Below, piece after piece: positions 37,468 through 57,716 of a DNA stretch of 64,000 nt. The position numbers and the translations under genes are program-made. Below the pieces are notes generated by a model. That model was not told the DNA's origin. It worked only from the letters and a program-made list of their open reading frames with translations, and searched no databases. The stretch's first letter is position 1. Each line of letters begins with the position of its first letter. The DNA is from Chryseobacterium oryzae (lineage in GTDB: Bacteria > Bacteroidota > Bacteroidia > Flavobacteriales > Weeksellaceae), in the NCBI RefSeq assembly GCF_022811665.1, contig NZ_CP094529.1:1054001-1118000 (forward strand), read 5' to 3'.

Positions 37468-37539
37468 GGCTGCATAGTTTAATGGATAGAACTTCGGATT
37501 TCGGCTCCGACAGTGAGGGTTCGAATCCTTCTGCGGTCA
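37468..37539 (+). tRNA. tRNA-Arg (anticodon TCG)
   Basis: The cloverleaf is complete. Acceptor arm is GGCTGCA/TGCGGTC (with G-T wobbles) with discriminator A. The D-arm is GTTTAATGGATAGAAC. The anticodon stem TCGGA/TCCGA encloses loop TTTCGGC, giving anticodon TCG (CGA codon). The T-arm is GAGGG/CCTTC with TTCGAAT. CCA is not encoded. A terminator follows directly. The accessory region begins about 200 bp downstream, so this tRNA is a plausible island boundary, though no duplicated tRNA end is visible in the window. Confidence 0.95.
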
Positions 37540-37540
37540 C

Positions 37541-37751: not shown

Positions 37752-37852
37752 AAATAACTATATGCAAAAACAGAATTTCGGAGTTTTGGAATCGGGACAA
37801 AGGTATTTTGAAAATGACAGTATAGAAAATTTGGTAATTACCGTAGTTCTAT
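37752..37852 (+). mobile_element. IS110-family 3'-end remnant (copy 1)
   Basis: This 100-bp stretch aligns with the 3' end of the larger IS110 fragment at 40785-40883. It preserves the residues of the transposase tail (KQ.FGVL..GQ) and the terminal TATAGAAAATTTGG...TTACC.TAGTTCTAT. Immediately after it comes GTT, the conserved triplet of a cassette junction (37853-37855). The rest of the element is lost. Confidence 0.75.
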
Positions 37853-37863
37853 GTTAAATTCTG

Positions 37864-38637
37864 CTATTTTTTAGGAATGTACCATTCATATCTTGGATTA
37901 TTTTCAAAAGAAATTATCCTTAGAATTCCTTTGCGCATAGATAAGTAAATATCATTTCCGTCAATTAAAGCATTTGAAGGATACAACATTCCCCAATAAA
38001 AATGACTTGTTAAGATAGTAGTAATTTCATTTTTGCTGTCCAATTTTAATATATGCTTGTCAGTAATAATTAATTTGTTTCTATTATGTTCAACGGTGAA
38101 AATTGGAATTCCCTCGATTTTAGAAATTTCCTTGTAAATCCAATCTTTTTCCTTTTTGATTTCAAATATAGCTCCTCGTGATGAACCAAAATTATAAGAC
38201 ATTTCTGTGACAAATATTTTGTTGTTGAATTGAAAAATTTCCTGGACTCTCATACAACAATTTAATTCAGTAATTTCTTCGCCATTTTTTGAAATAACAA
38301 ATAAGCTGCCTCCGAATTCTCCATTATTTACTCCTACTATATATTCATTACCAATTTTTTTTACTTTTCTATTATAAGAATTTATTGCAATATTTTTCTT
38401 GTAAATTTTCTCCCAAGGTAATTCTAATTTGTTTTCAGAATTTTTATTGAATTTCATTTGAATGATATTCCACTCAGTTCCTATTTTCTCAAATGTCCAA
38501 TGTTCTTTCGAATCACCAGCATCAAAGATATTATTATCTAAAGGGAGGTCAGTTTTTTTCCAATCATTTAGATTGGGTTTTTGAGAAAATGAACTTATTG
38601 AAAAAAATAGAAAAAATAATCTGAATGTTTTATGCAT
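37864..38637 (-). CDS. Cassette gene: secreted protein of unknown function (257 aa)
   Basis: A signal peptide (MHKTFRLFFLFFSISSFSQ) is followed by a mature domain rich in short beta strands with repeated patterns such as EYIVGVNNGEFGGSLFVISKNG and IFVTEMSYNFGSSRGAIFEI, which suggests a beta-propeller-like fold (inference). No family is recognised. The stop codon is 9 bp from the GTT at the IS110 remnant end, and the start is directly next to the truncated repeat at 38641, so the cassette's own 5' boundary is damaged. Confidence 0.72.
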   Translation of the reverse strand: MHKTFRLFFLFFSISSFSQKPNLNDWKKTDLPLDNNIFDAGDSKEHWTFEKIGTEWNIIQMKFNKNSENKLELPWEKIYKKNIAINSYNRKVKKIGNEYIVGVNNGEFGGSLFVISKNGEEITELNCCMRVQEIFQFNNKIFVTEMSYNFGSSRGAIFEIKKEKDWIYKEISKIEGIPIFTVEHNRNKLIITDKHILKLDSKNEITTILTSHFYWGMLYPSNALIDGNDIYLSMRKGILRIISFENNPRYEWYIPKK

Positions 38638-38640
38638 AAT

Positions 38641-38758
38641 TTTTTTTCAATAGAACTAAATTACAAAAAAATGTGGAATTGAAAAGCGGCGGCGGCAAAA
38701 AAAGTTTTGGATTTTTAATTCAGGCTTTAAACCCGCATTTTGCCAATACCGTGTTAGC
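38641..38758 (-). repeat. attC-like repeat R1 (half copy)
   Basis: Only the right half of the plus-strand consensus is present, beginning inside the central TTTTTCAAT arm and ending CCCGCATTTTGCCAATACCGTGTTAGC. The left half, with AAC and CCAATGC arms, is missing, so it cannot form the outer stem and should be inactive. Triplet after GTT: AGC. Confidence 0.85.
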
Positions 38759-38769
38759 TGACGTTTTTC

Positions 38770-39600
38770 TTATTTTTGAATTAATACATCAACATTTATA
38801 GAAGGTTCTCCAACCGAAAATTTTTTCCAATCTCCAAAATAATTTCTGTAGTATGTATTTTTAGAAAACGCAAAAATATTTCCGCCAAAATATAATCTAC
38901 CATCTAAATTTTCATCAACTCGAACCAAAACAAAAAAATCTTGATTTGTCCAAATATTTTTGTCCTCCACATTCAATGAAACCTTATTATTCCTAATGTC
39001 ATCTTCAGTTAGTTCTAACTTTAACGTTTCATTTGCTAAAGATTGAGAATCATCGGGAAATCCATTTTTTGCATTTTGTATGTCAAAAATTAAAACTGCT
39101 GGTTTATTGAGTTTGAAATTTACAATATTTACATTAATATTTTTAATTTTTAAATGTCTTTTGTTACTTATTTTTATTGCATATTCATTAAATATTTTAT
39201 CTTTTTTTTCAGAATCATATCCACAATAATTTGTTTTAGAATTTGAGGTTCCAAAATTTCTTAAAATATACTTTTTAGGATTTATTATTACGGGTTCAAT
39301 ATTTATAAATTTTTCCTTTAATATAATTTGATGTGCTGAGTTTATAAAATCAGAAATCTTAATTTCAAAAGGTTGAAATTCACTAACAACAACTTTAAGA
39401 TTTTTATTTTTTTCAATGTTTGAAAAATCAATTTGAAAATTTCCATTTTCATCAGAAATATCACCAATTTCTTCACTTTCGATTCCAACTCTTGCATTTT
39501 TGATTGGTTCGTTTTCTTTATCTACTATTTTCCCGGAAATTTTTTGAGCTTGACTTTGGAAAAAGAATAAAATAATTACTAAAAATATGTTTTTTTTCAT
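38770..39600 (-). CDS. Cassette gene: secreted protein with CarboxypepD_reg-like domain
   Basis: This 276-residue protein has a signal peptide (KKNIFLVIILFFFQSQAQ). Residues about 20-95 form a carboxypeptidase-regulatory-like (CarboxypepD_reg) domain: KISGKIVDKENEPIKNARVGI ... DISDENGNFQIDF, common at the start of Bacteroidota outer-membrane proteins. The C-terminal 180 residues are unrecognised. ATG 39600 was chosen because it begins the signal peptide. Its stop is 12 bp from repeat R1. Confidence 0.75.
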   Translation of the reverse strand: MKKNIFLVIILFFFQSQAQKISGKIVDKENEPIKNARVGIESEEIGDISDENGNFQIDFSNIEKNKNLKVVVSEFQPFEIKISDFINSAHQIILKEKFINIEPVIINPKKYILRNFGTSNSKTNYCGYDSEKKDKIFNEYAIKISNKRHLKIKNINVNIVNFKLNKPAVLIFDIQNAKNGFPDDSQSLANETLKLELTEDDIRNNKVSLNVEDKNIWTNQDFFVLVRVDENLDGRLYFGGNIFAFSKNTYYRNYFGDWKKFSVGEPSINVDVLIQK

Positions 39601-39629
39601 TTCAGGCACAATATTTTGATAAAATGTAA

Positions 39630-39819
39630 GCTAACGGGAAAAGTATTGCTGAAGTGCGGGAGAAAGAAGAACTTTAGTTCAATTTCGACCAAGCGAAGCA
39701 ATTGCTTTTTCCGTGAACTAAATTACAAAAAAATGTGAAACGGAAAAGCAAATGGGACAAAAGCTGTAAATAAGTTCAATTTAGCATTCAACCCCGCATT
39801 TTAGCAATAGAATGTTAGC
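39630..39819 (-). repeat. attC-like repeat R2
   Basis: Full copy, left end GCTAAC, right end GTTAGC. Its outer stem reads GTATTGCT / AGCAATAG, where most copies read GTATTGGC / GCCAATAC. The central stem reads GCTTTTTCCGT / ACGGAAAAGC instead of GCTTTTTCAAT / ATTGAAAAGC. Both are paired changes that keep the helix. Confidence 0.9.
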
Positions 39820-39829
39820 TGCAGTTCTT

Positions 39830-39935
39830 TTATGAAATTATTATTGACACAATTATTGCAATAACTGAAATTACTAAAGCGATTAGACTTAGATTTATTG
39901 CTTTTTTATTCAGATTATATGATTGATAACTGTAA
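39830..39935 (-). pseudogene. 3' remnant of a cassette gene (C-terminal membrane helix)
   Basis: A minus-strand frame encodes the last ~34 residues of a membrane protein (NLNKKAINLSLIALVISVIA then IIVSIIIS and stop). The stop codon lies 11 bp from the R2 core, the normal cassette spacing. Upstream the frame breaks exactly where the IS110 fragment begins (39936), so the rest of the gene was lost when the element was inserted or deleted. Confidence 0.65.
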
Positions 39936-40856
39936 AAACTGGATGTCTATAGCGAAGAAGAAGGACATGGAGAGTTTACCAATACCTCAGAGGGCTTTAA
40001 AAATCTTGTTGAAGTTTATGGCGCAAGTTCTCATTACGTAATGGAGAGTACTGGCTGTTACCACGTTCTATTGGCGCTTTATCTCAGTAATAAAGAGATT
40101 AAAGTAAGTGTAGAAAATCCTTTGAAGATCAAACGTTTTATCCAGATGTGTCTGATACGTGTAAAGACGGATAAGGCTGATGCAAAGATGATCTGCAATT
40201 ATGGTTTGAGTCATTGTCCGAAACTATGGGTTGCACCAGACGAAGTCCATCAATCCAGTAATAATCTGTTTAGTTTACTGCAGTATTACGAGAAACAGCG
40301 TACCTCATTGAAGAATAAGATCCATCGGGAGGAATCCTTAGGAAGTCCAAGTCGTGAGGTAATATCATCCTTAAAAAAGCTATTGAAGACTTATAATAAG
40401 GAAATGGATCAATTGGAGTTATCGTTAGAAAAGTTGGTAAGCTCAATTTACAAAGAAGAATTAAAGCTGCTGCGTAGTATTCCTGGAATCGGGGTTAAGA
40501 CGAGTATTTTATTGGTGTTGATGAGTAATGGTATGCAAAATTTCGAGAGTTCGGGACAGTTGTGCAGCTATGCGGGTTTAACACCTGTAATCCGGGAATC
40601 AGGAAAGAGTGTACGTTCCCGTCCAAGAATCAGCAAGATGGGTAATGGGCTTTTGCGACGTCATCTGTTTATGTGTTCGTTCAATGCGGTGAAATACAAT
40701 GGGAGCTGTAAGGCATTGTATGAGCGTATCAAAGGGAAGGGCAAGAGTGGGAAAGTAGGGATGATAGCGGTATGCAACAAACTTTTGAAACAGAGTTTCG
40801 GGGTATTGAAATCTGGGCAACCGTATAGTGAAAATTTTTCGTTAAAAACTGTATAG
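39936..40856 (+). pseudogene. IS110-family transposase, N-terminally truncated
   Basis: The frame is open from 39936 after an in-frame stop. The first internal ATG is at 40041. It retains catalytic residues of the DEDD domain (VMESTGCYH; RVKTDKADAKMI) and the C-terminal transposase domain (LRSIPGIGVKTSILLV, QLCSYAGLTP, the serine in SRPRISKMGN and RRHLF). The start codon and the first catalytic Asp of the usual GIDVSK motif are missing, so it is not functional. It is on the plus strand, opposite to the cassette genes. Confidence 0.85.
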
Positions 40857-40883
40857 AAAATTTGGTTGTTACCATAGTTCTAT
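39936..40883 (+). mobile_element. IS110-family element, 5'-truncated (copy 2)
   Basis: The fragment begins at codons KLDV, the very start of the IS110 transposase catalytic domain, and ends at ...ATAGTTCTAT, directly before GTT of a cassette junction (40884-40886). The same 3' end abuts a GTT at copy 1. No terminal inverted repeats were found, as expected for this family. The missing 5' end makes it inactive. Confidence 0.82.
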
Positions 40884-41039
40884 GTTATGTGCAGTGCTAT
40901 TTGATTCCGTTCAAAATTTTATTTTTCTAAAAATGGATTATTTCACTGCGATTAATACTTGTAATATCCAAGAAAACATCCAACAATTGCGAAAGTATGG
41001 TAAGTGCTAAGTTTGCTTTTTTTGTTAGTTATGATTAGC
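40884..41039. other. Cassette boundary and non-coding 3' part of cassette
   Basis: GTTATGTGCAGT at 40884-40895 is the right-hand boundary of a cassette. Its ATG triplet matches the CAT of CATAAC at the left of R3 (41577). The remaining ~145 bp up to the lipoprotein stop show no ORF; this spacing is unusual because other cassette genes stop within 12 bp of the core. Confidence 0.6.
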
Positions 41040-41492
41040 TTATTCTCCCCGAATCTTTCCATCTCTACGATACCAAATTTTCATTGTTTCATATTGTAGA
41101 GAAAAAAGATCGTCATTTAAGAATTCGTTATTATAATGGGAAGCGATTTTTTTAATTTTTTCTAAAATAACAACACCATTTTTTCTATTAAAATAATATT
41201 TTTTAATCGCATTATCTTTATTGACTTCAACTAATACTAAAGAATTATCAATCCTCTCTCTCTTTTCTGAATAACAGATTTTCTCTATTTTTGTTAAATC
41301 TTCTTTCTCCACTTGGTAATTGACTACCGGAAAATCGTTCTCTTTTGGCTTCTTATTTGTAAGAACAATTATTGAAGGTGGAGCATCACGAGAACCTATA
41401 TAGTATATTGTTATTTCATAAACATTTATGTTTTTATTTTCTTTTTTAGAACAACCTAATAATAAAACTAAAAAAATGAGTAAATGTTTCAT
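41040..41492 (-). CDS. Cassette gene: lipoprotein of unknown function (150 aa)
   Basis: The lipoprotein signal MKHLLIFLVLLLGC puts the lipobox Cys at residue 14. The mature part (KKENKNINVYEITIYYIGSRDAPPS ...) is a compact alpha/beta domain rich in Lys. No family is recognised. It sits in the cassette between the IS110 fragment and R3. Confidence 0.68.
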   Translation of the reverse strand: MKHLLIFLVLLLGCSKKENKNINVYEITIYYIGSRDAPPSIIVLTNKKPKENDFPVVNYQVEKEDLTKIEKICYSEKRERIDNSLVLVEVNKDNAIKKYYFNRKNGVVILEKIKKIASHYNNEFLNDDLFSLQYETMKIWYRRDGKIRGE

Positions 41493-41576
41493 ATTCTATC
41501 TTTTTAACCATCAATATTATTTGTTTTTCTTATCTTATTTTTTTTGATTTTAAGCGGAATTTTTGGAAGCATTGCA

Positions 41577-41766
41577 CATAACGGAAAAAGCATTGGCGAA
41601 GTGCGGGAATTCGAAGAACTTTAGTTCAAGAAAGACCAAACTAAGCCGATGCTTTTTCAATGGAACTAAATTACAAAAAAATGTGGAATTGAAAAGCAGT
41701 AGCGGCAAAAAGTGATGGATTTTCAATTCAGAGTTTAACCCCGCATTTTGCCAATACCGTGTTAGC
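41577..41766 (-). repeat. attC-like repeat R3
   Basis: Full copy: left end CATAAC, right end GTTAGC. The mismatch between the two ends of this one repeat, and the match of each with the other end of the adjoining cassette, is part of the cassette-exchange signature. The outer stem has one mismatch (GCATTGGC/GCCAATAC). Confidence 0.9.
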
Positions 41767-41777
41767 TGAAGGAATTT

Positions 41778-42203
41778 TTAAATATCTCTAATTTCAAGTT
41801 TTGCAGATTTCAAAATCATATTAAGTAACTCGTGAAATTTTTCATCTTTTTTCGGAACACCGATATAATAAAAATCCTTTTTGAAATTATCTTTTTGATA
41901 TTTTATTTTCAATATTGGTGGATCCAACCATAAAGATTTAGAAGAATCCTTTTCAAAAATTTGATTATAAATACTTAAAATTTGTTGGTATTTTTCTTTT
42001 GAAATTTTTTTATTGTCAAAATATTCATTTTTTCTAAATATTTTGACAATTACTTTTTTGTTTCTCGGAACTAATGTTATATTAGTTTTATTTTCTCCAA
42101 TAATTACAGCATTTGAGCTCTCAAACTCTAAAAATTCAGTTTGGTGAGTTTTGCACGAGCTTAAAATACAAATAAAAACAAGAAAAGTCACTAATTTACT
42201 CAT
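41778..42203 (-). CDS. Cassette gene: lipoprotein of unknown function (141 aa)
   Basis: The lipoprotein signal MSKLVTFLVFICILSSC (Cys at residue 17) is followed by a small domain (EFLEFESSNAVIIGENKTNITL ... EKYQQILSIYNQIFEK). No family is recognised. The stop is 12 bp from R3. Its upstream cassette part is interrupted by an IS30 element about 30 bp before the ATG, which probably separates it from the upstream array transcript. Confidence 0.68.
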   Translation of the reverse strand: MSKLVTFLVFICILSSCKTHQTEFLEFESSNAVIIGENKTNITLVPRNKKVIVKIFRKNEYFDNKKISKEKYQQILSIYNQIFEKDSSKSLWLDPPILKIKYQKDNFKKDFYYIGVPKKDEKFHELLNMILKSAKLEIRDI

Positions 42204-42232
42204 GTTTATTCTTAAGTGGTTTGATGGTAAGG

Positions 42233-43440
42233 TGGATTCAAATTGCTAGTGCAACTTTTTATTTTTGTAAAAATATTTAAAATTTGTGATTTCTGAATAA
42301 AATATGGATAACTTTTTAGCCTTTTTGGCAAAAAGTTACCCACATTTTATTTTCAGCGACAACAACGGCGTTTTTCAATGTAATTGATTTAGAATAAGAT
42401 TATTAAATACATCTTTCGGTGTTTGATAGTCTAATACCTTTCTTGGTCTTTCATTAAGCTGGTTTTGAACCTCTTTAATTCGTTTTTTAGAGATTTCGTT
42501 GAAGTCAGTTCCTTTAGGGAAATAGTCTCTTACAATCCCGTTCGAGTTCTCATTGGTAGGTCTTTCCCAGGGGGAATAAGGGTGTGTAAAATAGACCTGA
42601 ACTTTGGTATTCTTAGTGAATAGTTTGTGCTCAGACATCTCAGTTCCATTATCATAAGTGAGAGTTTTCTTCATAGTTTTGGGGAGTTTTAAAAACTCTT
42701 TTTCAAAGGCTTTACGCACCGTTTCGGCGTTTTTGTTTTTCAGAGGGACAAGAATAATGGTTCTAGTGGTTCTTTCCACGAGTGTTCCAAGGCAGGATTT
42801 GTGTTCTTTACCGATGATTAAGTCACCTTCCCAATGCCCGGGAATCTCTCTTCCCAGGACTTCTTCCGGTCTTTCATCAATAGAAACACGGTCTTTAATT
42901 TTTGGTTCTAATACAGCTTTTGTTTTAAAGTTTCCTCTTCGTTTACGTTCTTGTCTGAGCTGTGATATGAGTTCTGCTTTTAGTTCTTTTTTCGAGTGAA
43001 GATAGATGTACATGTAGATGGTTTCGTGAGATACATTCATGGTTTTATCATTTGGATAAAGTCTTTTCAAAGTAACGGCAATTTGATCAGGTGACCAACG
43101 CAGGGCTAGTTTTTCGTGAACGAATAGTTGAAGTTTTGGATTGGTATTAATCTTATCTTTCCACCATTTTCTGTCTGAAGATCTCAGGAATGCCTTTCTA
43201 TGGGCATTATCAGCGTAATAAGATTTGTGCGCATATCTATTTCTTTTGAGTTCTCGAGTAATGGTTGATTTACTTCGTCCAAGTTTTTGAGCAATTTTGG
43301 ATGGTGAATACTGAAGATTTCTAAACTCTTCGATTTTCACTCTTTCGTGAAGGGTTAAACGCGTGTATTTTTTCATAGCAACAAATGGATTTTGTAAAGT
43401 TAAAATCTTTAACATTTGTTGCACTAGATTCCTGAACCGG
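42233..43440 (-). mobile_element. IS30-family insertion sequence
   Basis: About 1.2 kb. The ends are imperfect inverted repeats sharing TTCA and CTAGTGCAAC (left near 42234-42255; right, inverted, near 43418-43438). The element carries one transposase gene and lies inside a cassette, between the lipoprotein start and the cassette boundary next to R4. A target duplication could not be determined by eye. Confidence 0.82.
42375..43376 (-). CDS. IS30-family transposase
   Basis: This 333-residue transposase has an N-terminal HTH (RLTLHERVKIEEFRNLQYSPSKIAQKLGRSKSTITREL) and a DDE integrase core. The three catalytic residues are in GHWEGDLIIGK (Asp), TYDNGTEMSEHK (Asp) and SPWERPTNENSNG (Glu). The length is normal for IS30, so it may be active. 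ATG 43376 is the start; the longer upstream frame only reads through R4 and the left end. Confidence 0.93.
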   Translation of the reverse strand: MKKYTRLTLHERVKIEEFRNLQYSPSKIAQKLGRSKSTITRELKRNRYAHKSYYADNAHRKAFLRSSDRKWWKDKINTNPKLQLFVHEKLALRWSPDQIAVTLKRLYPNDKTMNVSHETIYMYIYLHSKKELKAELISQLRQERKRRGNFKTKAVLEPKIKDRVSIDERPEEVLGREIPGHWEGDLIIGKEHKSCLGTLVERTTRTIILVPLKNKNAETVRKAFEKEFLKLPKTMKKTLTYDNGTEMSEHKLFTKNTKVQVYFTHPYSPWERPTNENSNGIVRDYFPKGTDFNEISKKRIKEVQNQLNERPRKVLDYQTPKDVFNNLILNQLH

Positions 43441-43454
43441 CGTCTACCATTGCC

Positions 43455-43645
43455 GCTAACGGAAAAAGTATTGGCGAAGTGCGGGAATTCGAAGAACTTT
43501 AGTTCAAGAATGACCAAACGGAGCCAATGCTTTTTCAATGGAACTAAATTACAAAAAAATGTGGAATTGAAAAGCAGCGGCGGCAAAAGTTGCGGGAATT
43601 TTCAATTCAGACTTTAAACCCGCATTTTGCCAATACCGTGTTAGC
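43455..43645 (-). repeat. attC-like repeat R4
   Basis: Full copy, GCTAAC ... GTTAGC. It shows all stems: outer GTATTGGC/GCCAATAC and TGCGGG/CCCGCA, small hairpin GAACTTTAGTTC, central GCTTTTTCAAT/ATTGAAAAGC and third hairpin GAATTTTCAATTC. Confidence 0.92.
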
Positions 43646-43655
43646 TGCAGTCTCT

Positions 43656-44187
43656 TTATTTCCATTTTTTTCGTAACTTATTCCATTCATTCCAAAATGC
43701 AGAATAGCCAATTTTATTAAAGTCATTTTCTTCTATGACTTTTGGTTTACTTTTTCTGTAAAAGTCTTCAATTTTATCAGCAAATTCCAAAATAATTTTT
43801 TTATAAATTTTAAATTCTAATTCGGCTTCGTTTCCTTTTTCAGTTACGTGTTTTATTTTTTTATTGTCGGTGTGAGTTATTATCAATTCCACTTGGACAA
43901 CCAACTATATTTACAAAATCATCGTTTTCATTTTCCGCAAAAAAATTAAATCCACAACAAGGAAGTAATTGACTTGCGTAATCATCTTTTTTATAATTTT
44001 CTTCTAATGTTCGCATTAAATATAATGCAGTTGAACTTACAGTTATTTCAGAAGTGTTTTCATCACAAATTATTTCATCACCGATTTTTACAAATAATTT
44101 TCCGTGTGCACATAAATCAAGTTCTTCATTCATATTTCCAAGCCAATATAAACTTAAAAGTTTAAATTCAAAATTTTCGGAATTCAT
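43656..44187 (-). pseudogene. Cassette gene: immunity-like small protein, frameshifted
   Basis: Two overlapping frames together make one protein. The first 105 residues (NSENFEFKLLSLYWLGNMNEELDLC ... FVNIVGCPSGID) end at a stop near 43861. The other frame continues HTDNKKIKHVTEKGNEAELE to FNKIGYSAFWNEWNKLRKKW. The break is near 43885. The combined ~185-residue protein looks like a cytosolic immunity-type protein found in Bacteroidota (family assignment tentative). The stop of the second frame is 11 bp from R4. A true frameshift or a sequencing error is possible. Confidence 0.62.
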
Positions 44188-44215
44188 TTGTTGACGGAGT
44201 TTTGGTGAGATTGCA

Positions 44216-44408
44216 GCTAACGGAAAAAGTATTGCTGAAGTGCGGGAGAAAGAAGAACTGAAAGTTAAATTTCGACCAAGCGAAGCAATTGCTTTTTTCG
44301 TGAAGCTAACTTACAAAAAAACTGCGGAACGAAAAAGCAATTGCGGCTGAATTTGCAGAATCTTCGATTCAAGAATTCAGCCCCGCATTTTAGCAATACG
44401 ATGTTATC
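44216..44408 (-). repeat. attC-like repeat R5
   Basis: Full copy, left GCTAAC, right GTTATC. It is the most divergent in sequence and yet keeps the fold: outer GTATTGCT/AGCAATAC, small hairpin AACTGAAAGTT, long central GCAATTGCTTTTTTCG/CGAAAAAGCAATTGC, third GAATCTTCGATTC. Confidence 0.92.
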
Positions 44409-44413
44409 TGCAG

Positions 44414-44932
44414 TTACAATTTTCCGTTTATGATTTTTTTATAAAGTTCTTTGTTATGCTTTCTATTGTTAATCTTACTCATTGTAATCCAATAGAAAAT
44501 TGGACTAAAGATTATTGCAATCAATAAAGGAATCCAATAAGTTTTAAATATGAAAAATGCTGTAGTCAATATTAGAATTAATAAAAATTCAAAATAATAT
44601 TTGTCTTTTTCAGCAATTCTTTGTTTAATTATGATTAAATTTCCTTTCCTTTTGTTGATTCTCTCTTGAACCTTTTTTGTTAATTGTTCGACACTATAAT
44701 AGGGATTGTCAAGATCAGAAAGAGTGAAGCAGATCGAAAATTCAATTTCTAAACTATCCATAAATCTATAGTATTTTCTAACTCCTTTAAAAGAGTTTTT
44801 AATTTGTCCTTTATTTTTTGGCGGAAATGTCAAATAATCCAAAAAATGAGATTCATCAAATTTAGTATTCGCTTTTTCTCGTTTTTTATTAAAAAGTTCT
44901 AGAATCTTATTTCCTATTTCAACTTGGGTCAC
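44414..44932 (-). CDS. Cassette gene: two-helix membrane protein of unknown function
   Basis: About 172 residues from a GTG start (44932), chosen because it lies 28 bp from the R6 core like other cassette starts; upstream in-frame codons belong to the repeat. The N-terminal ~110 residues are soluble (VEIGNKILELFNKKREKANT, KGVRKYYRFMDSLEIEFSI). Two adjacent membrane helices follow (YYFEFLLILILTTAFFIF and WIPLLIAIIFSPIFYWI). The stop lies 6 bp from the R5 core. No family is recognised. Confidence 0.65.
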   Translation of the reverse strand: MTQVEIGNKILELFNKKREKANTKFDESHFLDYLTFPPKNKGQIKNSFKGVRKYYRFMDSLEIEFSICFTLSDLDNPYYSVEQLTKKVQERINKRKGNLIIIKQRIAEKDKYYFEFLLILILTTAFFIFKTYWIPLLIAIIFSPIFYWITMSKINNRKHNKELYKKIINGKL

Positions 44933-44959
44933 TTTAGCAGCATTTTTGGAGTAATTGCA

Positions 44960-45151
44960 GATAACGGAAAAAGTATTGGCGAAGTGCGGGCTTTCGGAGA
45001 ACTGAAAGTTCAAGAAAGACCAAACGTAGCCGATGCTTTTTCAATGGAACTAAATTACGAAAAAATGTGGAATTGAAAAGCAGCGGCGGCAAAAAAGCTG
45101 AGGATTTTCAATTCAGACCTAAACCCCGCATTTTGCCAATACAATGTTGTA
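44960..45151 (-). repeat. attC-like repeat R6
   Basis: Full copy, left GATAAC, right GTTGTA. The small hairpin is GAACTGAAAGTTC and the third hairpin has CTGA/TCAG pairing. Confidence 0.92.
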
Positions 45152-45159
45152 CGCAGTTT

Positions 45160-45987
45160 TTATTCTATATCTATAAAATTATTGAACTTTTTGATTTTGT
45201 CTAATCTGTCTTTTTCAATGGCTCTAATCATTTCTGGACTTGCGCCGTTCGTCAAATTAATTTTTAAACCACTATCATCAACATATACACCATTTCGTAG
45301 TTGTTTTGCAGGATCCAAAGTATAGGCTTTGTACACTTTTTTATATTTATCAGATTTAATCTCGATACTTTTTGAAAGAATACTCGGAAAGTAGTCTTCA
45401 ACTAAATCACTTTTTTGAAGAGAAATAAGGTTAAAGTCATAATCTCCGGAATCGTCATTTGCTAAAAAAACTAATCCTGGTAAATCCTTGAAAAGATATG
45501 GACCATCTGAAACGGGAATTTCATTACTGTACCAAACTGTCCAATTCCGCCCAAGAATTTTAGCCGTTGCTTTTTGTAATTTATAATCTTTCCAATATTT
45601 TGTTTCATTACTGATTTTCCAAGAGGGTTTGTTCTCATTAATTTTATAAGAATCACCGTCTAAAGTTTTGACTAAATAAAAACCTGTTTTCGTTTTTACA
45701 ACACCTAAAGGATAATTTGCTTTTTTGAAACTCTCAGTATTTATATCAAAACCTCCTTGGGGATTCTTATCTTTAATAGAAGTCATTAAAGAATCACTAT
45801 AATAGTAGTTATAATTGTAAAATTTGCTAGAATTAGTTTTTGGCTTAATCATTAATACAAAATGTTCTGAAACAATAGAATCTTTACCTTTTTTTGGCTT
45901 AAATTTCATTTCGTAAACGACTTTATAATCTTGGGCAAAGGATAGATTAATTAATAGAATAGCAAGAAAAGTAAATAGTGATTTCAT
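45160..45987 (-). CDS. Cassette gene: GLPGLI family secreted protein
   Basis: This 275-residue protein has signal peptide MKSLFTFLAILLINLSFAQ. The motif region WTVWYSNEIPVSDGPYLFKDLPGLVF is the GLPGLI signature of a Bacteroidota periplasmic family of unknown function. ATG 45987 begins the signal peptide; the frame further upstream only reads through repeat R7. The stop is 9 bp from R6. This is the one cassette product with a named family common on chromosomes. Confidence 0.85.
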   Translation of the reverse strand: MKSLFTFLAILLINLSFAQDYKVVYEMKFKPKKGKDSIVSEHFVLMIKPKTNSSKFYNYNYYYSDSLMTSIKDKNPQGGFDINTESFKKANYPLGVVKTKTGFYLVKTLDGDSYKINENKPSWKISNETKYWKDYKLQKATAKILGRNWTVWYSNEIPVSDGPYLFKDLPGLVFLANDDSGDYDFNLISLQKSDLVEDYFPSILSKSIEIKSDKYKKVYKAYTLDPAKQLRNGVYVDDSGLKINLTNGASPEMIRAIEKDRLDKIKKFNNFIDIE

Positions 45988-46029
45988 TGTAAAACTTTGA
46001 TTTAAGGCAGTTTGTTGTACAAAATTGCG

Positions 46030-46221
46030 TACAACGGAAAAAGTATTGGCGAAGTGCGGGAATTCGAAGAACTTTAGTTCAAGAATGCCCAAACGTAGCC
46101 GATGCTTTTTCAATGGAACTAAATTAATAAAAAAATGTGGAATTGAAAAGCAGCGGCGGCAGAAAAGTGATGGATTTTCAATTCAGACTTAAACCCCGCA
46201 TTTTGCCAATACCGTGTTATC
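46030..46221 (-). repeat. attC-like repeat R7
   Basis: Full copy, left TACAAC, right GTTATC. TACAAC is matched by GTTGTA at R6, across the GLPGLI cassette: an unusual triplet shared only by these two ends. Confidence 0.92.
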
Positions 46222-46229
46222 TGCAGTTT

Positions 46230-46847
46230 TTATTGTATTTCTTCGCTTGCTTTATTTTTTACGTCTTCAACATTATATTTATTTTTAACGAAATATTCTT
46301 TAGGAACATTCAGCGTTTTTAATCCACCAACAGCAAAGCCTAATTTATAACCTTTATTATCTTCAGTTGTTAGAAAAACATTATCATATTTTTTGTCATC
46401 GGAAGGGATATAAAGCATTACATATTTGTTTGAATTGTCAGGAGAAATAAATTCATCATTTGATTTTGTTGTTGTCCAACCTTTAATGTTCGCATTGTAG
46501 AAAATTTCGTTTGGATAGTAAAGATAATTGATTAAAAAACAAAATGTTGTAAAATTAATTCCATAAGGAAAAGTCAAAACGAATTCATTTTGTGAAATTG
46601 CGGTTAATCTAATTATTGCCTGATAATTTTCTTTATTATAAGTATTACAAAATTGATTTAATGCTTTTTTAATATCATTATAATTCGCACCATTTATAAT
46701 AACAATTCTGTCATTTACAATTTCGTTTTTTTCTGCAGGAAGTTTTGGTCTTGAATTATCGTTAAATTTATTTTCGTTTTTTGGAATACAAGATTTTATC
46801 AAAATTAAAATTCCAATTATTCCTAAAATTATTAAAATTACTTTCAT
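46230..46847 (-). CDS. Cassette gene: membrane-anchored/lipoprotein-like protein (205 aa)
   Basis: The N-terminus MKVILIILGIIGILILIKSC is a membrane anchor or lipoprotein signal (Cys at residue 20). The extracytoplasmic domain contains IVIINGANYNDIKKALNQFCNTYN and EIFYNANIKGWTTTKSNDEF. No family is recognised. Only ~25 bp separate its ATG from the R8 core, leaving no room for a promoter inside the cassette. Its stop is 9 bp from R7. Confidence 0.68.
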   Translation of the reverse strand: MKVILIILGIIGILILIKSCIPKNENKFNDNSRPKLPAEKNEIVNDRIVIINGANYNDIKKALNQFCNTYNKENYQAIIRLTAISQNEFVLTFPYGINFTTFCFLINYLYYPNEIFYNANIKGWTTTKSNDEFISPDNSNKYVMLYIPSDDKKYDNVFLTTEDNKGYKLGFAVGGLKTLNVPKEYFVKNKYNVEDVKNKASEEIQ

Positions 46848-46871
46848 AGCAGATGTTTGGAGAAAATTGCA

Positions 46872-47064
46872 GATAACGAATAAATATTGGCGAAGTGCGG
46901 CTTTTGAAAGACTAAAAGTTCAACCAAGACCAAACTGAGCAAATGCTTTTTTCGTGAAGACTAAATTACGAAAAAAGTCGAAACGAAAAAGCATTTTGCG
47001 GACAAAAAAAGTGGAGTAGTTCAACTGAGAATTCAAGCCCGCATTTTGCCAATATCCTGTTGTC
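46872..47064 (-). repeat. attC-like repeat R8
   Basis: Full copy, left GATAAC, right GTTGTC. Outer stem reads ATATTGGC/GCCAATAT, a paired change from GTATTGGC/GCCAATAC. Central arms AAATGCTTTTTTCGT/ACGAAAAAGCATTT. Confidence 0.9.
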
Positions 47065-47539
47065 TGCAGTATTTTTAATTCAAGAGAGTGAATTTCAGTG
47101 AAATTCAGTTTCGAAGAATTCAAAATCAAAGACGACAGTTTTACGTTTTTATTCTTAGTTTTTTAATTTTTGAGTTCACTTTTTCGGAATTTGAGATTAA
47201 ATCCAATATTTGAATATTCAGTTTTTAGATTTACAATTTAATTCCAGAATTTAAGAACATTCATTACCAATTTTCATGATTTGAATTCAGTAATATTTGT
47301 TATTTTTTTAAATTTAGTTTGCTTTTTTGAATTTACTTCACTTTAATTCTGCTTTAATTCAAGGAAATTCAGAGCGTTTCGATTCAGTTCAATTTCAGAA
47401 TTATTTCAAACTAAATTCAATACTTATTTTGAGATTTTTAGAATGATTTTTAAGTAAAATATTTAAGTAGGAAAAACCCTTTTAAATCCTTTCAAAATTT
47501 GAAAAAGTCTCTATTTAATGCCGCTTTGGTAATATTGCA
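47065..47539. other. Cassette without a recognisable gene
   Basis: A cassette of about 475 bp lies between R8 and R9 with matching ends (GTC/GAC, TGCAG/CTGCA) but no credible ORF on either strand. It is AT-rich and contains about seven scattered copies of ATTCAG/TTTCAG-like motifs (near 47092, 47101, 47218, 47288, 47369, 47385, 47393). It may be a decayed gene or encode an RNA; neither is shown. Confidence 0.7.
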
Positions 47540-47731
47540 GACAACGGAAAAAGTATTGGCGAAGTGCGGGCTTTCGAAGAACTGAAAGTTCAAGAACGCC
47601 CAAACGTAGCGAATGCTTTTTCAATACTGCTAACTTACAAAAAATTGCAGAATTGAAAAGCATGAGTGGATTATTTTTTTCTGCTTTTCAATTCATTACT
47701 TCTCCACGCATTTTGCCAATACAATGTTGTC
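47540..47731 (-). repeat. attC-like repeat R9
   Basis: Full copy, left GACAAC, right GTTGTC. The third arm is altered: ATTGAAAAGCA can also pair with TGCTTTTCAAT further right, an alternative fold unique to this copy. Confidence 0.9.
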
Positions 47732-47742
47732 TGCAGTTTTTT

Positions 47743-48459
47743 TTATTCATTTGATTTTAGGACTTGTAACATTATTTCATCATGCCTTTCTTTTGCTTCT
47801 TCGATAGATTTATAGTTTTGAAAATTATGATAATATGTTGCATAAAATAACCTATTGTCAACAATGAACATATTTCCAACGGCAATCATATTTCTTTGAT
47901 TTGTACCACTTTTAATTGATACTAAAGTTACATTTTGTATTGAATTTGGAGTAAGCGAATAATTTTCTACAATTATAGGTTTTTCGAAAACATTATTTTT
48001 ATTTATGTCTTCAAGTTTACTTTTCAAATACTTCCAATTTGATGAATTTACATATTCTTTAGCTCTTTCGTTAATACTATTTAAATATTCGTTATTAACA
48101 TCTATATCATCATTACTATTTGTAACATAAATTTGAAAAAAATCATCAAATTGGTCTTCATACAATTTTTCTAAATTTTGAAATATTTTTTCATTAACAA
48201 AGTAAGCAACAAATGTGTTTCCAGGATAATTTTTACTTTGAATATAGTCTTTTGATTGTGGATTGAGAATGATATTGTGCATCCCTTTAATTTTTGGAAC
48301 ACATAACGTTGATTTTCCAAATTGAAATGAATTGTCACAATTTTTTTTTGTTGGATTTGTATTTGTATTTGTATTTAAGGAGTTATCAATACTGACATTG
48401 TTTTGAGATTTTGAACAACTAACTGCTAAAATTAAAAAAAGTATATTAAATATTTTCAT
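47743..48459 (-). CDS. Cassette gene: lipoprotein of unknown function (238 aa)
   Basis: The lipoprotein signal MKIFNILFLILAVSC has Cys at residue 15. A Asn/Thr-rich linker (NTNTNTNPTKKNC) precedes a mature domain of ~190 residues (SFQFGKSTLCVPKIKGMHNI, NTFVAYFVNEKIFQNLEKLY). No family is recognised. Stop 12 bp from R9. Confidence 0.7.
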   Translation of the reverse strand: MKIFNILFLILAVSCSKSQNNVSIDNSLNTNTNTNPTKKNCDNSFQFGKSTLCVPKIKGMHNIILNPQSKDYIQSKNYPGNTFVAYFVNEKIFQNLEKLYEDQFDDFFQIYVTNSNDDIDVNNEYLNSINERAKEYVNSSNWKYLKSKLEDINKNNVFEKPIIVENYSLTPNSIQNVTLVSIKSGTNQRNMIAVGNMFIVDNRLFYATYYHNFQNYKSIEEAKERHDEIMLQVLKSNE

Positions 48460-48494
48460 ATTGAGTTTTTATGCAGTTTCATTGTAAAATTGCA

Positions 48495-48685
48495 GACAAC
48501 GGAAAAAGTATTGGCGAAGTGCGGTCGAAATTGAACGGAAAGTTCAATTTCGACCAAACGTAGCCGATGCTTTTTCAATGGAACTAAATTACAAAAAAAT
48601 GTGGAATTGAAAAGCAGCGGCGGTAAAAAAGCTGTGGATTTTCAATCTTGACTTAAACCCCGCATTTTGCCAATACCGTGTTATC
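48495..48685 (-). repeat. attC-like repeat R10
   Basis: Full copy, left GACAAC, right GTTATC. The small hairpin is extended to a perfect 14-bp stem, GGTCGAAATTGAAC / GTTCAATTTCGACC. Confidence 0.92.
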
Positions 48686-48695
48686 TGCAGTCTTT

Positions 48696-49424
48696 TTACA
48701 TTTCATAGAGTGTTGTATAACAATCAACTCTGTAAGTTTCAATTCTTAAATTATATTCGTCTATATTTTTCGATTCGTTAAATAATTTATAAACTCTTCC
48801 ATTCTCTTTATCCAAAATGTAAGTAGGTCTTATACCATTTTTTCTATCTTCTAATATTTCTTTAAATAATTTTGATGTTCTTTCCAAGCAATTTTTTGGC
48901 TCTTCATCCTTGTATTTTGATTTTCGAGGTGAAAATTCTACAAAATCTTCGAACATTTGAGGTTTTTTTTCAAGCATATCTTCTGTATTTAAAATACTTG
49001 TAATAAGTTGAATAAAAACTTGCTGTTTTTCGTCAACACTTAATTTTAAGTTAACTGCACTATTTTGGAGTTCTTTTTCGAACGTTGTATTTGTTTTAGA
49101 AAATTTGCTTTTTTCAGTTTCATTTTTAAAATTCCAAAAATCATAATACATATTTGAAAGAAAAGGAATTGCATAAAATTTATTTCCTTTTTGAAAGACT
49201 AAAATTTCGTCATAATCTGTTTTATCAATATTACGGTAAAGTGAAATTGCTAAAGAGTTAAATTCAACTTTCTTAATTTTTTCCAGTTTTTTGTCAATAA
49301 ATGGAAATTGTTTAAGAACGAAATTTATGCTTTCTTGTTCATTTTCAGAAACTCTATTTAATTTTTCATTTTTACAAGAAAAAGCAAAACATAATACAAA
49401 AATTATTAAGATTCTGAATTTCAT
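48696..49424 (-). CDS. Cassette gene: lipoprotein of unknown function (first cassette, 242 aa)
   Basis: The lipoprotein signal MKFRILIIFVLCFAFSC has Cys at residue 17. The mature part is helical and polar (EQESINFVLKQFPFIDKKLEK, DYDEILVFQKGNKFYAIPFLS). No family is recognised. ATG 49424 was chosen over an upstream frame that reads through R11. It is the cassette closest to the recombinase gene, the position of the newest cassette in an integron. Stop 11 bp from R10. Confidence 0.7.
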   Translation of the reverse strand: MKFRILIIFVLCFAFSCKNEKLNRVSENEQESINFVLKQFPFIDKKLEKIKKVEFNSLAISLYRNIDKTDYDEILVFQKGNKFYAIPFLSNMYYDFWNFKNETEKSKFSKTNTTFEKELQNSAVNLKLSVDEKQQVFIQLITSILNTEDMLEKKPQMFEDFVEFSPRKSKYKDEEPKNCLERTSKLFKEILEDRKNGIRPTYILDKENGRVYKLFNESKNIDEYNLRIETYRVDCYTTLYEM

Positions 49425-49452
49425 TTTGTTGCGGGGTTTTTGGAAGATTGCA

Positions 49453-49642
49453 GATAACGGAAAAAGTATTGGCGAAGACGGGCAAAAGGAATTCGAAGAA
49501 TTCAATTTTGCGGAGTAGAAGCCAATGCTTTTTCGTGAAAACTAAATTACAAAAAAAGTTGTAACTAAAAGCATTGGCGGCTAAGAATATTCAAATTTTC
49601 AATTTGGATATTCAAGCCCGTTTTTGCCAATACCGTGTTATA
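49453..49642 (-). repeat. attC-like repeat R11 (recombinase-proximal)
   Basis: Full copy, left GATAAC, right GTTATA. The inner stem is ACGGGC/GCCCGT where others have TGCGGG/CCCGCA, again a paired change. No cassette lies on its right side; the recombinase follows after 235 bp. It occupies the place of attI in an integron but looks like the other repeats. Confidence 0.9.
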
Positions 49643-49876
49643 TAAATAATTCAATTTATTGTTACCAATTGCACTTAAAATACTGTAAATAAAGCATTTG
49701 TATTTTTATAATAATTAAATAAATGCAAAAAAAAGCAATTAAAATAGATAATTGTTGTACCAAATGTTGTATCTTTGAATTACAATGCTTCCGTTTATAT
49801 CTTGTTGATTTCATGTTGCTTCATTGGATTGCATTGTCTTTCAAAATTAGTTCAATTTTCTAAAATTTCAAAGATT
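49643..49876. promoter_or_regulatory. Region between array and recombinase, with recombinase promoter
   Basis: TATCTTTG at 49770-49777 exactly matches TAnnTTTG, with TTG at 49752-49754 about 15 bp upstream; this is the likely promoter of the recombinase. The remaining ~120 bp AT-rich segment next to R11 shows inverted CAATTG/GCAATT segments and may hold a primary recombination site or an outward array promoter, but no minus-strand -7 box was found. Confidence 0.5.
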
Positions 49877-51094
49877 ATGGCAACAGTTAAACTTGTTCTT
49901 AGAACACAGCAGAAAGATAAAAACGGAGACAGCCCCTTGTATATTCGGGTTATCAAAGACCGCAAGACCAGATTCATAAGCACAGGTTATAAATTCAAAG
50001 AAAACCAATGGGACGACGAAAAGCAGAGAGTACGCAAAAACTTCCCTAATTCTGCTAGAGTAAATGCGCTATTGTCCCAAAGGATTGCAGATGCGGAAGG
50101 ACACGTTGCAGATTTAGAACGTAAAACAAAATCGGTTTCTGGTAGAAGATTAAAAGAAGCCATAAAAGGAAAAGGCTCGGTTAATTATTTTGCTTATGCC
50201 ACTAATAGATTGGAGCAGATGAAAAATTCTGTTTCCTACAGAACACATAGAGGTTACAAAGATATTCTCGCAAAATTTGAGAAATACAATGGGAGTAAAG
50301 ATTTGAATTTTGATGATATTACATTTAGCTTTCTTAAGGATTTCCAAAACTACTGCAGCAATACGCTTAGTAATAACAATACCACAATAAAATTGTCAAT
50401 GACAGTTTTGGGTAAATTCTACAAAGATGCCATAAAAGAAGATTTGGTTGGTGCAAACCTATACCCTTTCGACAAAATCCAGATTAAAAAAGAAGCGGGA
50501 AAAAGAACTTTCCTAAATAAAGATCAGATTAAAGCTTTTTCAGAAATTGAAGTTAATCCGGAGACTAAGGCCCAAATTATAAAAGATATGTTTTTGTTTT
50601 CGGTTTATGCAGGAGGTCTACGTCTAAGTGATGTTTTGGAATTGAAATGGGAAAACATCAATCTTAACGAAAATAGAATTACCAAAACCATCCGGAAAAC
50701 TGGAAGACTACACAGTTTTAAAATCGGACAGGTGGCAATCAGTATTCTCAACAAGTACAAAACAAAGGAAAGCGAAGAAACTCATTTTGTATTTCCAATG
50801 CTCGTAAATGATACGCCTTATTTTCAAAATAAAGAATACGCCAATGCAGAAATTGAGCGTTGTACTTCTCTCTGTTCTTTGCACCTTAAAAAAATCGGAA
50901 AAGCATTAAAGTTGCCTTTCAATTTATCATTTCATTTAAGCCGCCATACTTTTGCTACCAATGCTTTGAATAACGGAATGCGGATTGAGCACGTCTCAAA
51001 ACTAATGGACCATTCAGACATTGGTATTACTCAAATCTATGCAAAAATCATTTCACAAGAGTTGGATGACGCCGTTGATAAATTCGTATTCTAA
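49877..51094 (+). CDS. Tyrosine recombinase/integrase, Bacteroidota mobile-element type
   Basis: This 405-residue integrase has an N-terminal arm-type DNA-binding domain (ATVKLVLRTQQKDKNGDSPL ... FISTGYKFKENQWDDEKQ), a SAM-like core-binding domain (about 100-200) and the catalytic domain. That domain has Arg in YAGGLRLSDVLELKW, H-x-x-R in HLSRHTFATNAL, His in LMDHSDIG and the Tyr in TQIYAKI. All catalytic residues are present. It resembles integrases of Bacteroidota mobilizable elements and lacks the IntI-specific insert. ATG 49877 matches the family N-terminus. It is divergent from the cassette array. Confidence 0.92.
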   Translation: MATVKLVLRTQQKDKNGDSPLYIRVIKDRKTRFISTGYKFKENQWDDEKQRVRKNFPNSARVNALLSQRIADAEGHVADLERKTKSVSGRRLKEAIKGKGSVNYFAYATNRLEQMKNSVSYRTHRGYKDILAKFEKYNGSKDLNFDDITFSFLKDFQNYCSNTLSNNNTTIKLSMTVLGKFYKDAIKEDLVGANLYPFDKIQIKKEAGKRTFLNKDQIKAFSEIEVNPETKAQIIKDMFLFSVYAGGLRLSDVLELKWENINLNENRITKTIRKTGRLHSFKIGQVAISILNKYKTKESEETHFVFPMLVNDTPYFQNKEYANAEIERCTSLCSLHLKKIGKALKLPFNLSFHLSRHTFATNALNNGMRIEHVSKLMDHSDIGITQIYAKIISQELDDAVDKFVF

Positions 51095-51432
51095 GAAAAA
51101 GTAAACAATTATTTTTTTTAACATGCTCAAAAGTAAACAAAAAGTAAAATTAAGTTTACATATAATGTAAACTTATTTATGCTTTTGTGATAAAAAGTTC
51201 ACTATTTTAGACAAAAAGTTATATAACCTTTATATAACTTTTTGTTTTGTTAAAAATAATTTAAAATTTACTTTATTGTTTATTTCTGTTTTATTAATTT
51301 AGCTTTCAGATGATTATGATGAAATTTTGCAATTGACTTGAATGATAGACGAACAATTTTTATCAAAAACCTCCACAATGATTTACCAAGTGAAAGGAAT
51401 ACAGTTCAATGATCTAAAACACAAAGAGAGAA
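51095..51432. other. Intergenic region with palindromes after the recombinase
   Basis: It contains repeated AAAGTAAAC motifs, a palindrome AAGTTTACAT/ATGTAAACTT (51152-51174), a 13-bp hairpin (51213-51243) and the start of a 44-codon ORF at 51342. This could hold recombinase or excisionase binding sites. Confidence 0.5.
51213..51247. terminator. Hairpin, probable terminator of the recombinase
   Basis: AAAAAGTTATATA and TATATAACTTTTT form a perfect 13-bp stem with loop ACCTT, followed by T-rich sequence. Confidence 0.65.
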
Positions 51433-51476
51433 ATGTCCGACCATTACAATTTATTGGAAACTTCACCGTTTTCTGA
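51342..51476 (+). CDS. Candidate 44-residue ORF overlapping the next gene
   Basis: The frame begins MIDEQFLSKTSTMIYQVKGI and stops at 51474-51476, overlapping the first 44 bp of the RteC-like gene in another frame. Such an overlap could couple translation. No homolog is recognised; the composition is plausible for a protein, but it may be an untranslated leader. Confidence 0.35.
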   Translation: MIDEQFLSKTSTMIYQVKGIQFNDLKHKERNVRPLQFIGNFTVF

Positions 51477-52341: not shown

Positions 52342-52348
52342 AAAACTT

Positions 52349-52388
52349 AGTCCCCAGGAGACCATTTGGAGACCTGGGGACTTTTTTA
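52349..52388 (+). terminator. Intrinsic terminator
   Basis: AGTCCCCAGG and CCTGGGGACT form a GC-rich 10-bp stem followed by TTTTTT. Confidence 0.93.
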
Positions 52389-52430
52389 TTTCACACAACT
52401 TTGCTTCATAATTATAAAACAAGTTTTATT

Positions 52431-52712
52431 ATGGAAGCAATTATTTTATCCAAAGAGCAATTCGACCAACTAATGACGAAAGTAAACGATATTGCCGACA
52501 AAGTACAATCCAAAACCACTCAAAAACAAGAAGTTTTTGTGGATAACGAAGAGTTTATCAAGATGATGAAAATCTCTCGCAGAACAGCACAAACCTGGCG
52601 AGACGAAGGAAAAATTTCATTCTCCCAAGTCGGCAACAAAATCTACTACAAACTTTCCGACATCGAACGCACAATGCAGGACTACTACAACAAATCATTT
52701 CAAAAGAAATAG
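52431..52712 (+). CDS. Excisionase-like helix-turn-helix protein
   Basis: This 93-residue protein has a MerR/excisionase-type winged HTH at residues 40-85: FIKMMKISRRTAQTWRDEGKISFSQVGNKIYYKLSDIERTM. The N-terminal ~35 residues form a helix (LSKEQFDQLMTKVNDIADKV). This is the helix-turn-helix-17 type widespread in Bacteroidota mobile elements, where it regulates excision or transfer. ATG 52431 is the start. Confidence 0.82.
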   Translation: MEAIILSKEQFDQLMTKVNDIADKVQSKTTQKQEVFVDNEEFIKMMKISRRTAQTWRDEGKISFSQVGNKIYYKLSDIERTMQDYYNKSFQKK

Positions 52713-55141: not shown

Positions 55142-55144
55142 TAG

Positions 55145-57705: not shown

Positions 57706-57716
57706 AATAATAACTT

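Follow-up and report, generated by a model that had tools for sequence, protein, structure and literature searches.

Which machinery assembled the row of short gene units, each closed by a long repeat, that lies in the genome of Chryseobacterium oryzae? The stretch analysed here (the window) comprises 64,000 nucleotides of contig NZ_CP094529.1 (assembly GCF_022811665.1, positions 1,054,001 to 1,118,000), and an earlier note made from its letters alone had proposed mobile cassettes with unusually long attC-like sites in a Bacteroidota host. That proposal is supported by tests of the cassette ends, by break points, and by a recombinase with an attI outside the window. We read the repeats as part of an integron-like gene-capture system with mobile cassettes, an attI and a XerA-like recombinase that is not IntI, with a probability of roughly 0.87. 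This reading draws on cassette structure, break points, the attI beside the enzyme, the enzyme's position outside IntI, and co-occurrence of enzyme and sites. The system acts like an integron at the tested points except for its enzyme family; we class it as a second integron-like system and not as an IntI integron.

Ten full repeats and one half repeat (R1) are present in the window, on the minus strand like the open reading frames (ORFs) between them, and measure 184–187 bp from AAC to GTT, or 190–193 bp including the adjoining triplets. By script, the triplets were complementary within the cassette in 9/10 neighbouring pairs; the pair R2–R3 is split by an IS110 element, whose junction gives ATG and CAT and thereby restores the 10/10 originally claimed. 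Triplets at the two ends of one repeat agreed in 3/10 window repeats, again as claimed. The match between cassette ends extends over seven bases, not three. Among window 7-mers, seven of ten tested pairs were exact and eight had at most one mismatch, and across the host genome 44/46 cassettes matched at this tolerance (42 exactly) versus 10/52 repeats (2 exactly). Shuffled pairing of the host 7-mers matched 10.4 times on average and never more than 19 times, so the match within cassettes is beyond chance. The same test gave 33/49 cassettes versus 7/89 repeats in congeners, 22/25 versus 4/41 on plasmids, and 67/74 versus 7/98 in other genera (13 stretches from 11 genomes and nine genera, of which 12 yielded pairs), all at loci selected for having sites or enzymes and not drawn at random. 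The earlier note would have been contradicted by ends that follow repeats in a larger sample; in congeners, plasmids and other genera they follow cassettes. For the 7-mer and box tests, 190/226 and 98/113 sites were usable, 36 and 15 being dropped for want of a clear AAC and GTT, and 26/125 and 3/116 matches were left out as lying on the opposite strand. One counted mismatch (L080, 7445) is a parsing error in which ATT was taken for GTT.

Read in ORF direction, a repeat opens with 7 variable bases and AAC; after 3 bases comes an 8-base box, then a variable middle and a second 8-base box complementary to the first; 7 bases separate this box from GTT, which 7 further variable bases follow. AAC-to-GTT lengths are mostly 122–127 or 184–188 bp. 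The boxes form pairs such as GTATTGGC with GCCAATAC, GCATTGGC with GCCAATGC, GTATTGCC with GGCAATAC, GTATTTGC with GCAAATAC and GTATTGGT with ACCAATAC, and this L-box covaries: over 75 distinct combinations, 5.16 of 8 positions pair, compared with a mean of 3.80 and at most 4.28 after shuffling. R4, the sole repeat folded, forms a stronger fold than shuffled sequence does, with z −3.0 on the ORF strand and −3.85 on the other. A single DNA strand may fold as the recombination substrate. In the host, cassettes stand in tandem and in one orientation, each an ORF plus a 3' recombination site; some plasmid genes are antisense. The longest ORF was sense in 40 of 47 host cassettes and antisense in 2, and 5 had none of at least 50 codons. 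Stop codons had been placed 6–12 bp from the core, a spacing that is looser genome-wide: 28/40 sense ORFs stop 8–22 bases before AAC, the rest at −2 to 611.

Copied and exchanged cassettes show where the units begin and end. A 923-bp cassette occurs twice in a second host array of 34 kb, with 97% identity and different neighbours, and the R8–R9 cassette of the window has relatives at three other places on the host chromosome (96%, 89% and 80% identity). In four pairs of copied cassettes, identity spans the whole unit from TT to G and drops to 56–58% directly after the G; upstream it is 66–77%, because the flank there is another attC copy. The Riemerella anatipestifer plasmids pRA0511, pRA0726 and pRA0846 and an unnamed one share a backbone, and the five of their six pairs that were compared are 99.4–99.98% identical up to the site. 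Four of these five pairs have different first cassettes, with divergence setting in at GTT or at most three shared bases after it. The expectation that whole cassettes are gained and lost at G/TT (the slash marking the cut) therefore agrees with four pairs; the fifth carries a deletion inside cassettes. On the other side of these plasmids, divergence lies at the AAC beside a floR-bearing insertion.

The start of the window array lies 8 kb past the window, where a divergent recombinase, a conserved attI-like site at about C1:1125577 and cassettes follow one another. The array's own integrase is a 361-residue tyrosine recombinase (C1:1125706-1126788) on the strand opposite to an adjoining three-site group (C1:1123134-1124801). 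The first cassette of this group begins at GAGAG/TTGTACGAC, 129 bases from the open frame of the enzyme, with a 7-mer identical to its counterpart at the first site. Beside related enzymes, the stretch that leads up to the first cassette is conserved as about GACGCAATGCGTAAATTTGGAAG/TT, a consensus also rendered approximately as GCAATGCGTAWATTTGGRNG/TT, 50–430 bases from the recombinase start. This motif stands beside 15/24 enzymes, against a background of 41 occurrences in 1.79 Mb of retrieved, partly duplicate loci. The first-cassette 7-mer matched at 15/19 loci, 14 of them with the motif; some enzyme coordinates in this 19-locus test were approximate, and the 24-enzyme motif test repeats it with open frames. 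In other genera, the 7-mer matched at attI for 8/9 enzymes, with a similar sequence, CGTA.ATTT in five and CATATATTT in three. The break again falls at the G: attI flanks of three loci (L126, L127, L128) are 94–99% identical up to it and 53–54% after it, and in six other flank pairs identity falls from 72–94% to 52–56% across it.

The array enzymes match Pfam PF00589 and keep the catalytic residues R, K, H, R, H and Y, which are invariant in an eight-protein alignment (A4); in a 17-protein alignment (A5) the lysine is conserved at 90% or more and the others are invariant. They match the IntI profile TIGR02249 in two pieces (about positions 1–180 and 238–315), and the IntI-specific insert is missing from them in alignment A4. 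In the tree, IntI forms a separate clade (support 100/100) with the array enzymes outside; because of long branches, the joining of IS91-borne enzymes with IntI there may be false. The closest named family is NF040815 ("site-specific tyrosine recombinase/integron integrase", XerA-like), a Prokaryotic Genome Annotation Pipeline name that we take to be automatic. Three host proteins fall below its cut-off; bit scores were 204.6 for the window array enzyme (L002), 217.2 (L004) and 186.3 (L005), with a curated cut-off of 220. NCBI gives the NF040815-type name to members of a group of 278-residue enzymes. Silence of the fold-search rows on other enzymes is no proof of absence.

A covariance model built from the ten window repeats gave 64 matches in the host genome, 55 of them at 60 bits or more: 11 in the window, 38 at C1:1731733-1764956 (the 34-kb array, which weaker matches extend to 1765597), 3 in the three-site group, one at C1:1376364 and two on C2. 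Single sites were seen at C1:2345212, C1:1376364, C2:25152 and C2:34994, the two on C2 adjoining IS91-type recombinases; possibly they are off-target insertions. The search of other genomes suggested in the earlier note found the family in 89/120 genomes of the host family (27/33 genera), in 93/173 genomes of the genus and in 52/196 of the order, 29 of the latter outside the host family; filters were strict and site numbers per genome were capped. At E 1e-70 the enzyme was found in 27/173 genus and 66/120 family genomes. All 27 enzyme-positive genus genomes carry sites, and at least five sites occur in 23/27 of them versus 17/146 others (Fisher p 4e-14, ignoring kinship). In the family sample, which shares some genus genomes with the genus sample, sites occur in 65/66 enzyme-positive versus 24/54 other genomes, kinship again being ignored. 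In one genome of another genus in the family (G562), the 40 kb beside the enzyme (C1:626000-665999; L196–L197) hold an array of superintegron scale, in which 43 sites were matched over about 33 kb, all but two of them (41) on the same strand.

In the system that we propose, a cassette comprises an ORF and a single attC-like site, about 125 or 185 bp long from AAC to GTT, that can fold into a hairpin; in the free cassette the seven bases before AAC would pair with the seven after GTT. Integration would cut between G and TT and so leave one 7-mer at either end of the cassette. Incoming cassettes would enter at an attI-like site near a divergent XerA-like tyrosine recombinase that keeps the catalytic residues without the IntI-defining insert, for the window array presumably the 361-residue protein. 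Position, conservation and co-occurrence suggest that this attI-linked enzyme performs the recombination.

Cutting at G/TT and matched cassette ends are also the IntI pattern, and true IntI genes exist in the phylum (84/296 sampled genomes above the NCBIfam cut-off). The array could then be the remnant of an ordinary IntI integron, a cluster of attC sites lacking integron-integrases (CALIN), whose cassettes a true IntI makes elsewhere or made formerly and whose neighbouring recombinase is a bystander. We consider this very improbable: IntI (TIGR02249) exceeded the cut-off in 0/148 genus genomes and, among sampled genomes of the host's own class or closer, only in G183. The non-IntI enzyme has a conserved attI at its side, and counts of enzyme and sites rise together. 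Passive repeats, MITE-like (miniature inverted-repeat transposable elements) or terminator-like, between which homologous recombination shuffles cassettes, are hardly credible. Repeats of one genome are alike enough for such exchange (family D1, 60–100% identity), but breaks would then be expected anywhere in about 185 bp and no 7-mer match would be kept within cassettes; the observed breaks lie at G/TT in unrelated sequence contexts, attI among them, and attI is no copy of the repeat. A different recombinase acting in trans (XerC/XerD, an enzyme borne by IS91, or the integrase of some other mobile element), with the attI-linked enzyme as one of several users, seems unlikely. It would account for large arrays that have no enzyme nearby, for Myroides plasmid p63039, on which three IS91-borne enzymes each adjoin a site followed by different genes, and for a reported gene uptake in R. 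anatipestifer for which the available part of the paper names no enzyme (PMC13148043). Against it stand the attI sites with G/TT breaks beside XerA-like enzymes in several genera, and the IS91 ends, which abut AAC and not G/TT, as if IS91 chose these sites as targets.

Several observations weigh against a capture system run by the attI-linked enzyme. IS91-borne recombinases of another clade also adjoin such sites, so that more than one enzyme could act; no enzyme was found near the 34-kb host array, which would have to be served in trans; and sites occur in 66/146 genus genomes without the enzyme. By motif, 9/24 enzymes have no attI, one of the nine from other genera (L204) lacks a site on its divergent side, and a second enzyme match in the host (C2:38324) has no adjoining site. 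The 7-mer rule is broken by 16/49 congener cassettes, perhaps in part through undetected sites or insertions; plasmid-borne ere(D), erm(F) and catB are oriented opposite to attC; and pRA0726 and pRA0846 share the GTT junction and diverge 65 bases on, through a deletion that ignores cassette borders. No recombination assay for the attI-linked enzyme was found.

IntI integrons cut at G/TT in a core GTTRRRY. Unlike theirs, the sites described here have lengths of mostly 122–127 or 184–188 bp, spacers of three and seven bases and the core GTTNNNNG; the enzymes are placed outside the IntI clade and are without its insert of about 40 residues. CALINs as called by IntegronFinder are clusters of sites that have no enzyme close by, a feature which the 34-kb array shares; they are called with that program's own attC model, the sites here with our covariance models. 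With IntI integrons (class 1, Vibrio superintegron, chromosomal), as the available part of one review describes them, the present system shares a divergent tyrosine recombinase, an attI, cassettes of one ORF that stand in tandem and have 3' sites predicted to fold, mostly unknown genes, toxin–antitoxin cassettes and large arrays (PMC8618304). In one published Chryseobacterium genome, according to the available part of the report, IntegronFinder scored no integrons (PMC13063519). At gathering thresholds Rfam gave one tRNA and nothing else in the window, so no curated Rfam family applies to the repeats. In the open-access literature (preprints and most subscription journals lay outside this scope) we found neither a description of the cassette system nor one tied to the NF040815 family. 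The earlier statement that no array of this repeat family had been described stands for arrays; it needs amending for single sites, since a 2026 Riemerella paper, in its available part, reports an mfold prediction of an attC-like fold 3' of one gene, aph(3')-IVb (PMC13148043).

That gene links the system to antibiotic resistance. Plasmid pRCAD0416RA-1 carries APH(3')-IVb with a site directly behind it, and we predicted its cassette unit at 16530 to 17485. Natural transformation in R. anatipestifer moved the aph(3')-IVb coding sequence together with 27 bp and 140 bp, from a donor that was another strain, and the 140 bp are stated to be identical in all positive isolates (PMC13148043, available part). 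The published segment corresponds to 16531 to 17486 on pRCAD0416RA-1, in agreement with the prediction inside the shared GTT at both ends. The available text describes no array, and no mention of a recombinase, integrase or Xer was found in it; judged from that text, the site belongs to the family described here and the event was homology-independent uptake of exactly one cassette.

On named plasmids, sites also come immediately after aadS, three tet(X) genes, lnu(I), a RelE/helix-turn-helix (HTH) pair, blaOXA, estT and a phosphotransferase, and further sites occur on plasmids of Riemerella, Bacteroides, Empedobacter, Myroides, Chryseobacterium and one Salmonella. A search with the RelE cassette protein matched 36 loci, nine of which have sites. 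The window array itself had no plasmid match by megablast. Two Acinetobacter tet(X3) plasmids (L186, 5977-8073; L187) carry an enzyme relative, about 44–45% identical to the array enzymes, directly before tet(X3) and on the same strand, which is therefore not an integron arrangement; L187 also has a partial site after tet(X3). Elements with a tyrosine recombinase abut the AAC of sites, as TTTAGTTC/AAC, in L147 (200-9527, the recombinase annotated beside IS91 transposases), L083 (5153-6367 and 14995-16228), L088, L089 and L094. We considered this junction, conserved beside enzymes of 308–333 residues, as an attI and rejected it; since the break at AAC also occurs beside floR on plasmids, the better reading is an IS91 end that lies against the AAC of an attC. 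On Myroides p63039, three copies of such an element precede aadS, catB and tet(X2), resembling small mobile integrons.

Cargo is otherwise mostly obscure. A Pfam family above cut-off was found for 2/10 window cassette ORFs, and 9 of 19 tested ORFs of the 34-kb array had no Pfam match; the others include a peptidase M23, two Mrr-type nucleases, a GNAT acetyltransferase, a beta-lactamase-family protein, an HTH protein, domains of unknown function and, below the cut-off, a ParE-like toxin. Such cargo is typical of chromosomal integrons.

IntI is the defining feature of integrons, and a family-wide cassette system seems to have been overlooked, probably because searches target IntI and IntI-type attC. 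Integrons have been reported in Bacteroidota (PMC8618304), and for Bacteroidetes proper a large survey names only a single complete integron, that of Salinibacter (PMC9024848), each according to the part available. We think it probable that Bacteroidota, above all Weeksellaceae and other Flavobacteriales, run an integron system of their own, with non-IntI recombinase lineages, their own attI, long attC and arrays of about 40 cassettes, and that this system natively carries genes such as tet(X), aadS, lnu(H/I), blaOXA-347-type genes, estT and aph(3')-IVb, which would explain the hitherto puzzling homology-free uptake of resistance genes in Riemerella. The host and many relatives thus seem to possess a capture system built on another enzyme family, and well-known antibiotic resistance genes are found in cassettes of this kind. 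This offers a concrete route for flavobacterial resistance genes into single mobile units whose borders are predicted to the base, and a large new source of unknown cassette genes. Folded-site capture without the IntI insert, as suggested here, makes the purpose of that insert testable.

Table 1. Features of the window, in window coordinates; for repeats, the AAC start and the first base of GTT are given.
Feature	Position	Strand	AAC start; GTT first base	Basis
tRNA-Arg gene, distal end of the array	37468..37540	+		ARAGORN, Rfam
IS110-type element end, remnant, ending in GTTCTATG directly before TTA	37806..37853	+		end same as second IS110; repeat D8; junctions
Cassette ORF, 257 residues, no Pfam match	37864..38637	-		ORF and Pfam scan
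R1, half attC-like site	38640..38755	-	; 38753	covariance model, 62.9 bits
Cassette ORF, CarboxypepD_reg-like domain	38770..39594	-		Pfam scan
R2, attC-like site (AAC to GTT)	39633..39816	-	39633; 39814	motif and covariance model
IS110-family transposase and element end, abutting G/TT of cassette junction	40041..40884	+		Pfam; junction
Cassette ORF, 150 residues, no Pfam match	41040..41492	-		ORF and Pfam scan
R3, attC-like site	41580..41763	-	41580; 41761	motif and covariance model
Cassette ORF, 141 residues, no Pfam match	41778..42203	-		ORF and Pfam scan
Transposase, HTH_38 and rve domains, inserted in R3–R4 cassette; presumably IS30-like	42375..43376	-		Pfam
R4, attC-like site	43458..43642	-	43458; 43640	motif and covariance model
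Cassette ORF, 108 residues, no Pfam match	43861..44187	-		ORF and Pfam scan
R5, attC-like site	44219..44405	-	44219; 44403	motif and covariance model
Cassette ORF, 178 residues, no Pfam match	44414..44950	-		ORF and Pfam scan
R6, attC-like site	44963..45148	-	44963; 45146	motif and covariance model
Cassette ORF, Porph_ging match	45160..45999	-		Pfam scan
R7, attC-like site	46033..46218	-	46033; 46216	motif and covariance model
Cassette ORF, 205 residues, no Pfam match	46230..46847	-		Pfam scan
R8, attC-like site	46875..47061	-	46875; 47059	motif and covariance model
R8–R9 cassette, no ORF of 50 codons; similarity to its three relatives ends at G/TT	46877..47544	-		
R9, attC-like site	47543..47728	-	47543; 47726	motif and covariance model
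Cassette ORF, 238 residues, no Pfam match above cut-off	47743..48459	-		Pfam scan
R10, attC-like site	48498..48682	-	48498; 48680	motif and covariance model
Cassette ORF, 242 residues, no Pfam match	48696..49424	-		Pfam scan
R11, attC-like site, R'' core interrupted by 19.1-kb element	49456..49639	-	49456; 49637	motif, covariance model, junctions
19.1-kb integrated element, left part	49630..64000	+		10-bp copy ATACCGTGTT at both ends; Pfam

Several elements are inserted in the array (Table 1). R11 looks odd because the 19.1-kb element, which runs to C1:1122721, 4.7 kb past the window, integrated in it; joining the flanks restores the missing GTACGCA match, and the window array and the three-site group were formerly one array. 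The element's own tyrosine recombinase (49775-51094), of a Bacteroidota type with an Arm-DNA-bind_5 domain, was considered as the array integrase and rejected, since it belongs to the element. IS1111-attC elements target classical attC. Here, two IS110 ends (at 37853 and 40884) end at GTTCTATG exactly before the TT of cassette junctions, and this IS110 group seems to target the attC-like sites; the Pfam match of the transposase ORF (40041-40856) is confined to the later part of the DEDD domain profile. Within the 19.1-kb element, a gene for an AAA/SMC-like protein adjoins one for a HerA/DndE-like ATPase (57893-61562), a pair that looks like a defence module.

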